Below, piece by piece: positions 56,026 through 57,017 of a stretch of DNA of 64,000 bases; the stretch's first letter is position 1, and every line of letters starts with the position of its first letter. The notes beneath the pieces were generated by a model, which worked only from the letters and a program-made list of their open reading frames with translations, was not told the origin of the DNA and made no database searches. The stretch comes from Dillenia suffruticosa (Eukaryota; Streptophyta; Magnoliopsida; Dilleniales; Dilleniaceae), in contig JAVTVX010000035.1 in the NCBI GenBank assembly GCA_033439265.1, positions 20,238,001 to 20,302,000 on the forward strand, read 5' to 3'. A program made the translations under genes and the position numbers.

Positions 56026-57017
56026 ACATGTACCGAAATAACAAAAAAAAAAAAAAATTTTTTAAATAATCTGAGATGAAAATTTTTTTTTCAAATAACC
56101 TGAATTTATCGGAAGTTTGAGACGCGACACACTGTATCGCGTTTTTAACTTGCGACAGTCCAGAGAGAGAGAGAGGAGTCCGCGGGGGGGGGGGGGAGGG
56201 AGAGCGGCGGGGGCGGAGGGGGGAGGGAGGAGTGCGGCTGGGGGCGGCGGGGGGAAGGAGAGAGAGGGGAGGACCACGGCGGGGTGCAGAGGGGGGAGGG
56301 AGGGAGAGAGAGAGGGGGAGGGCCGCGGAGGGGGGGAGAGAGAGGGGGAGGGCTGCAGAGGGGGGAGGGAGGGAGAGAAAGAGGGGAGGGTGGCGGGGGT
56401 TCCGCCAGGGGAGGGAGAGAGAGAAAGAGGGGAGGGGAGGGGGCGGGCGGCGGAGGGGGGAAGGAGAGAGGGGAGGGGCGCGGCGGGGTGCGGAGGGAAG
56501 AGGGAGAGAGAGAGGGAGAGCCGCGGGGGGCAGAGGGCCGCAGGGGTGTGGAGGGAGGAGGGAGAGAGAGAGGGAGGGCCGCGGGAGCGTGGGGGCAGAG
56601 GGGGGAGGAGAGCCGCTGTGTCTCTCTCCTTCCCCGCTGTGTCTCTCTCCTCCCCCCTCCCCCCTCCGCACTCCCGTGACCTCTCTCTCTCTCTCCCTCC
56701 CCCCTCCGCACCCCGCCACGCCCCTCCCCTCTCTCTCTCCTTCCCCCCTCCGTCGCCCGCCGCGGTCCTCCCCTCTCTCCTTCCCCCCCCCCCCCCCGCG
56801 CCCCCCTGCCGGGCTCCTCCCTCCCCCCTCCACCCCCCGCCACTCTCCTCCACTCACCCCCCGCGCGGACTCCTCTCTCTCTCTCTGGACTGTCATGGGT
56901 TGAAGACACGACACAGTGTGTCGCATCTTTAACTTCCGACAAATTCGAATTATTTAAAAAAATTTTTGTCGGGTTCTTTTAAAAATTTTTTTTTTTCCGA
57001 CTCATTTTGGTACATGT
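56026..57017. mobile_element. Fold-back element, about 990 bp, purine arm then pyrimidine arm
   Basis: Ends are inverted copies: ACATGTACC at 56026-56034 and GGTACATGT at 57009-57017. Inside, both arms share GAATTT(A/G)TCGGAAGTT, GCGACACACTGT(A/G)TCG and GACAGTCCAGAGAGAGAGAG in opposite orientation. From about 56160 to 56605 the plus strand is almost pure G/A with GCGG interruptions; from about 56610 to 56885 almost pure C/T. The right arm, reverse-complemented, follows the left arm far inward, so nearly the whole element can form one long hairpin. The left arm also has tandem 50-60-base units. It is strongly GC-rich in an AT-rich region. No protein is encoded; long open frames on both strands only reflect few stop codons in such sequence. 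Class unknown: a fold-back transposon or large MITE is most likely. Confidence 0.8.

Follow-up and report, generated by a model that had tools for sequence, protein, structure and literature searches.

The purine- and pyrimidine-rich palindrome near the start of a threonine synthase gene of Dillenia suffruticosa is almost certainly a non-autonomous fold-back (long-TIR) Mutator-like DNA transposon (MULE). It is non-coding, its two halves are largely complementary, and it constitutes a new family within a known kind of transposon. An earlier note on the window (the whole 64,000-nucleotide stretch analyzed, G000:C35:20238001-20302000) had recognized no described family in it; that statement is superseded, since the ends, target-site duplications (TSDs) of 9-10 bp and a transposase in a same-ended element assign it to the Mutator superfamily, fold-back type. 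The same genome relatives, TSDs and transposase-bearing element led us to reject an element of unknown kind. MuDR/Mu of maize belongs to this superfamily as well, and Mu ends begin GAGA.

To fix the boundaries, we compared the window copy with its relatives in the genome. The fold-back span proposed in the earlier note stands, but its ends at 56026 and 57017 do not: GAG and CTC flank ACATGTACC and GGTACATGT in other copies, so that these two sequences were rejected as the true boundaries, and the family GAG/CTC sit 3 bp further out on each side, giving 56023-57020 (Table 1). In the TIR alignment, the left TIR of the window copy starts AAA where the family has GAG. A 6-bp duplication, ACATGT, was likewise rejected, since it belongs to the TIR. 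The subterminal near-palindrome GCGACACACTGTATCGCG has four matches in the window at up to 3 mismatches, which are two places each read on both strands, all within the element, compared with none in 100 shuffles.

Table 1. Features of the fold-back element and of the threonine synthase gene around it (window positions)
Feature	Position	Strand	Basis
Threonine synthase codons 1-2 (ATG GCT), ahead of the insertion	56009..56014	+	L060 sequence, protein comparison
Decayed left TSD CTCACTTC, 6/8 to the right copy	56015..56022	.	Inferred with help of the paralogue
Non-autonomous fold-back Mutator-like element, 998 bp	56023..57020	.	Ends from comparison with 32 other paired copies; family search
Left terminal inverted repeat (TIR), ~139 bp, inner limit approximate	56023..56161	+	TIR alignment
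Subterminal near-palindrome GCGACACACTGTATCGCG, left copy	56124..56141	+	Motif search; also in family alignment
G/A-rich arm, 88% purine, minisatellite-like, 8 quadruplex motifs	56162..56611	+	Repeat and composition analysis
C/T-rich arm, 86% pyrimidine, pairing partner of the G/A-rich arm	56612..56886	+	Repeats, fold, composition
Right terminal inverted repeat, ~134 bp, inner limit approximate, ends GGTACATGTCTC	56887..57020	-	TIR alignment
Subterminal near-palindrome, right copy	56907..56924	-	Motif search and TIR alignment
Right TSD CCCTCTTCC, 7/9 to the same 9 bp in L060	57021..57029	.	Comparison with L060
Remainder of the first exon of threonine synthase, end approximate	57021..57731	+	PF00291 match; tblastn with C18 paralogue
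Second exon of threonine synthase, start approximate, with a one-base frameshift at ~58497-58498	58133..58975	+	Domain match; tblastn with C18 paralogue

A repeat search shows overlapping inverted arms that run from the extreme ends of the element to its middle. The 25 pairs listed, of 118 inverted pairs found, include 56026-56087/56956-57017 (74% complementary), 56086-56191/56857-56962 (106 nt, 84%) and 56258-56315/56680-56737 (90%). When the whole window was searched for arms of at least 40 nt lying no more than 4 kb apart, 17 pairs were obtained, 11 within the element and 6 AT-rich pairs elsewhere. The predicted RNA fold of 56023-57020 has an energy of -698.9 kcal/mol, compared with -480.6 ± 10.2 for 20 dinucleotide shuffles (z = -21.5), none of which is as stable as the element. 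A fold so far beyond the shuffles indicates that the middle pairs as well; the earlier note had named pairing of the outer bases only as the outcome that would count against it, and chance pairing of the outer ends is rejected by this fold. Its "near-complete fold-back" is thus borne out as a fold and less so as strict arm identity, because a gapped global alignment of the left half with the reverse complement of the right half gives 59% identity in the window copy. This value drops to 48% after shuffling within 50-base blocks, and it ranges from 56% to 86% in the other 32 copies. The arms are unequal (450 vs 275 bases), and the folded element leaves some of the purine arm as a loop. Composite inverted repeats, internal tandem repeats and nearly meeting arms are all present, as expected for the fold-back type, with a half-to-half identity of only the 59% given above.

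The purine/pyrimidine arms are the unusual part of the element. Base counts agree with the earlier description of ~450 purine-rich bases followed by ~275 pyrimidine-rich ones (Table 1), as well as with that of a GC-rich element in an AT-rich setting (GC 0.61-0.73 over the element vs 0.16-0.29 in windows within 53000-55749). Repeats of the G/A-rich arm have TRF periods of 16-69, several of them at 30-46, and pattern matching alone yields eight quadruplex motifs on the plus strand of the element and two on the minus strand. Elsewhere, the window holds a 111-bp unit in two tandem copies (49379-49600, 95% matches) and a long open frame at 6111-8291 that is phenylalanine ammonia-lyase-like by eye.

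The genes of the window mark it as plant nuclear DNA, and relatives were sought in the same 596-Mb, 37-contig genome. Other copies, which the earlier note had suggested looking for, are present: a first look gave 806 candidates, and among the best 40 of these, which were scored, the long family matches are ~68-77% identical, with many places matched on both strands, as the fold-back structure demands. The element core as a DNA query also finds related sequences (742 candidates, best 40 scored). Exact matches to the 19-base TIR end number 145 in the genome, compared with 0 for a reversed control, and the figures rise to 1,022 vs 44 when up to 2 mismatches are allowed. We then defined a paired copy as two ends, each within 3 mismatches, lying 100-2600 bp apart among 58 loci. 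These loci comprise the best matches to the window element (L001-L020), the first 30 exact end matches listed (L021-L050), the two halves of a 16.8-kb element on C26 (L051 and L052) and six regions chosen for two exact ends close together (L053-L058); TSDs were ignored in choosing them. Loci with no second recognized end (e.g., L005, L015 and L018) were removed beforehand, as were duplicate views of a single element. The count then gave 33 distinct paired copies, 265-1233 bp long with a median of 977, whose ends are GAGACATGTACC...GGTACATGTCTC or close variants.

Of the 33 paired copies, 31 are bordered by TSDs of 9-10 bp that match at 80% or more, while just 1 of 1,056 mismatched left/right pairings reaches 80%; the two exceptions are the window copy (0.5) and L006 (0.7). 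MULEs are characterized by long TIRs and 8-11-bp TSDs, according to one source (PMC6446971). The family shows both, with ~135 bp of TIR common to the copies in addition to the complementary arms; for the window copy by itself the duplication is not clear. The core composition is shared as well: in the 32 copies longer than 700 bp, which leaves out the 265-bp copy, the left side is 58-89% purine and the right 62-90% pyrimidine, and 31 of the 32 further paired copies have the purine/pyrimidine core.

The link to a transposase comes from a 16,841-bp element (C26:1811196-1828036) that carries two exact family ends and a perfect 10-bp TSD, CCAAAAGCAG. One half of it encodes a PF10551 MULE transposase (E = 3.4e-16) and includes a PB1 domain at 23.3 bits, just below the 23.6 cut-off; it is therefore a same-ended autonomous member with a transposase domain. 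The other half includes a stretch (L051:3032-8983, C26:1814031-1819982) that we take to be pararetrovirus-like, presumably with zinc knuckle, protease and reverse transcriptase/RNase H motifs, all judged by eye. The half with the transposase also encodes a PF10536 plant mobile domain in two frames (E = 5.3e-30 and 5.5e-23). These frames lie on the minus strand at L052:1821-3077, the same strand as the MULE transposase, inside one TIR pair. According to PMC5418596, the first description of the plant mobile domain came with a rice MULE, and fusions of such domains to MULE transposases are present in several grasses and in Amborella.

The fold-back TIR consensus agrees with the two C26 TIRs at 69% and 68%, and with GAGAAATGTACCAAAATAAC, an end found ~3 kb upstream of one recent transposase copy as its 5' TIR (L075), at 74%. 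In the ends of autonomous elements that were read, no counterpart of the G/A core was seen. A transposase-frame search of the genome gave 1,118 candidates; among the best 150 of these, which were scored, the open frame spans 870 residues in 16, and in one of the 16 the stretch that matches contains a stop. We compared L065-L074 with L064 as the reference, with no gaps, over 3,531 bp: counting L064 itself, 8 of the 11 loci agree with the reference to within 2 nt (seven of them at 1-2 nt), L069 differs by 13, and L067 and L071 are 85% and 72% identical, values for which indels may account in an ungapped comparison. The near-identity of these eight loci indicates that the transposase lineage moved recently.

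As the earlier note had proposed, the element sits in the N-terminal coding part of threonine synthase; we place it just after codon 2. The unoccupied site that it had suggested searching for is present in a paralogue (L060 on C13), which reads ATGGCT, 9 bp and CTCTTCCACGCC without the element, while the order in the window is ATGGCT, CTCACTTC, element, CCCTCTTCC, CTCTTCCACGCC. The window copy's own duplication is weak evidence alone. Its left TSD appears one base short, and the two copies match at 3/9 positions at the strict offset, at 5/10 for the better of 9 and 10 bp, and at 6/8 if the left copy is taken as 8 bp. The TSD reading relies on the paralogue, because the surrounding DNA is CT-rich and the left copy's match to the right TSD is equaled by 4 of 110 upstream 8-mers nearby. 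A 161-residue query identifies four threonine synthase loci in the genome (four candidates, four matches), and L060 is the closest paralogue at 88% over 2,221 aligned bases. The intron is present in two copies (C35 and C13); the C18 copy is a single 517-residue open frame from its start, and the frame of the C4 copy measures 554 from stop to stop.

Translation from the native ATG gives M A L T S K H V P K before a stop within the element. As this frame ends after ten codons, the gene copy is probably disabled as a plastid enzyme. Nevertheless, the window copy shows no clear relaxation of selection: dN/dS for the mature part is 0.142 relative to L060, with non-synonymous and synonymous lineage counts of 6.5 and 15.5 for the window copy, and of 7 and 23 for L060. 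This result sits uneasily with an old knock-out. Together with the frameshift, it would mean that the loss is recent, that the copy is still used, or that the test lacks power. Continued expression could be achieved if the element were spliced out in a new intron, for which the C/T-rich arm could act as a polypyrimidine tract, or if transcription started downstream. The selection data would suit this explanation; on the other hand, the second exon carries a one-base frameshift at ~58497, the splice sites were judged by eye only, and such short lineages give little power, and we regard it as unlikely, if conceivable.

The divergence of the copies bears on how the palindrome evolved. Each fold-back copy shares 71-84% identity with its best-scoring partner (median 77%), the 84% referring to 180 bases of a short copy only. 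The two arms within one element differ by 15.9% over the TIR, whereas the two TSDs of one copy differ by 6.6% (20/302 in 32 copies), a figure lowered by leaving out the window copy and taking the better of 9 or 10 bp. Well-kept TSDs beside diverged arms suggest either that the arms were already unequal at insertion or that the element mutates faster than its flank. Each copy's own arms are more alike than those of other copies in 30 of 33 cases (mean 0.84 vs 0.80), a small effect that is nearly nil in the window copy (0.77 vs 0.76). Transitions in the TIR affect 13.3% of C/G sites outside CpG vs 3.6% of A/T sites. This excess appears as methylation would give it and would fit decay of methylated cytosines; CpG transitions, at 8.4%, are not higher than those at other C/G sites, which argues against a simple CpG-decay account.

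We propose that the element moves in trans. Its ~135-bp TIRs, which are similar to the TIRs of MULEs with a transposase elsewhere in this genome, enclose the arms and no transposase gene, and a MURA-type transposase from an autonomous relative would bind the ends and mobilize it, leaving a 9-10-bp target duplication. One such event would have placed the element behind codon 2 of one threonine synthase copy, whose function would be lost as the native frame ends inside the element. A transcript started at the host promoter would extend into the fold-back and might form a hairpin RNA.

Such a transcript raises the question of whether the window copy is a silencer in the manner of Mu killer, with the TIR part of the hairpin cut to siRNAs that silence autonomous MULEs in trans. 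Mu killer of maize, an inverted and partial duplicate of MuDR sequence, has been proposed to produce hairpin RNA when transcription reads through from a flanking gene (PMC3440606); a link from TIR fold-back via read-through to siRNAs has also been suggested (PMC6446971). The position would suit this role, because the element begins 14 bp downstream of the start codon's A and the region upstream is 76% alike over 157 bp in L060. The predicted hairpin is extremely stable and includes the family TIR, and the high rate of C/G transitions outside CpG could point the same way. However, the lower CpG rate does not, Mu killer carries transposase gene sequence and none was found in the window element, and the average match of the window TIRs to those of the other fold-back copies is only 76%. 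The 68-74% agreement of the fold-back consensus with autonomous TIRs is too little for many perfect siRNA matches, and in a large family the window copy stands without a known special role. We therefore consider the silencer quite improbable, and very doubtful the stronger version in which the arms are kept for hairpin function and the threonine synthase promoter drives siRNAs that check the recently active autonomous MULEs.

Fold-back structure is common to different transposases, as in Galileo with its P-element transposase (PMC3169594), but the 9-10-bp TSDs and a MULE transposase inside the same TIRs make it highly improbable that this is a fold-back from another superfamily or a purine/pyrimidine palindrome formed by chance. 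Long G/C runs and fold-backs are difficult to assemble in general, yet an assembly artefact or palindromic sequencing error is practically out of the question, given 32 other paired copies at independent sites, 31 with TSDs of at least 80% match and 31 with the purine/pyrimidine core, and is refuted for the family.

Among known systems, the non-autonomous fold-back MULE described here resembles, by its description, FARE of Arabidopsis thaliana, a plant fold-back family with a MULE-domain transposase, and also Tm1, a Mutator/Foldback family of root-knot nematodes (both PMC3169594). The same source gives Tm1 composite inverted repeats of variable length, internal tandem repeats, both MITE-like and transposase-bearing members, and 8-10-bp (mostly 9) duplications in 45 of 53 cases; Tm1 differs in its animal host and in an internal motif of ~14 bp, compared with the longer G/A-rich units here. 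Ac-mMITE of pineapple is also non-autonomous and Mutator-derived, with 9/10-bp duplications in one group, but its main families insert in TA microsatellites (PMC8449440), whereas here the repeat-like sequence lies within the element. A literature search, in which sources were partly accessible and the subscription literature is thinly covered, so that absence is unproven, returned no plant fold-back MULE with purine/pyrimidine arms, and nothing on threonine synthase together with foldback.

The finding brings together, in one assembled genome, a plant fold-back family, its transposase-bearing partner and near-identical recent copies of the transposase. The presence of fold-backs and recently moved transposase copies side by side makes it possible to test how derivatives relate to an active master. 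It also provides a case of a duplicated amino-acid synthesis gene interrupted directly after its start codon, with the unoccupied site preserved in a paralogue, and the contrast between well-kept TSDs and strongly diverged arms poses a small question on how such palindromes evolve.
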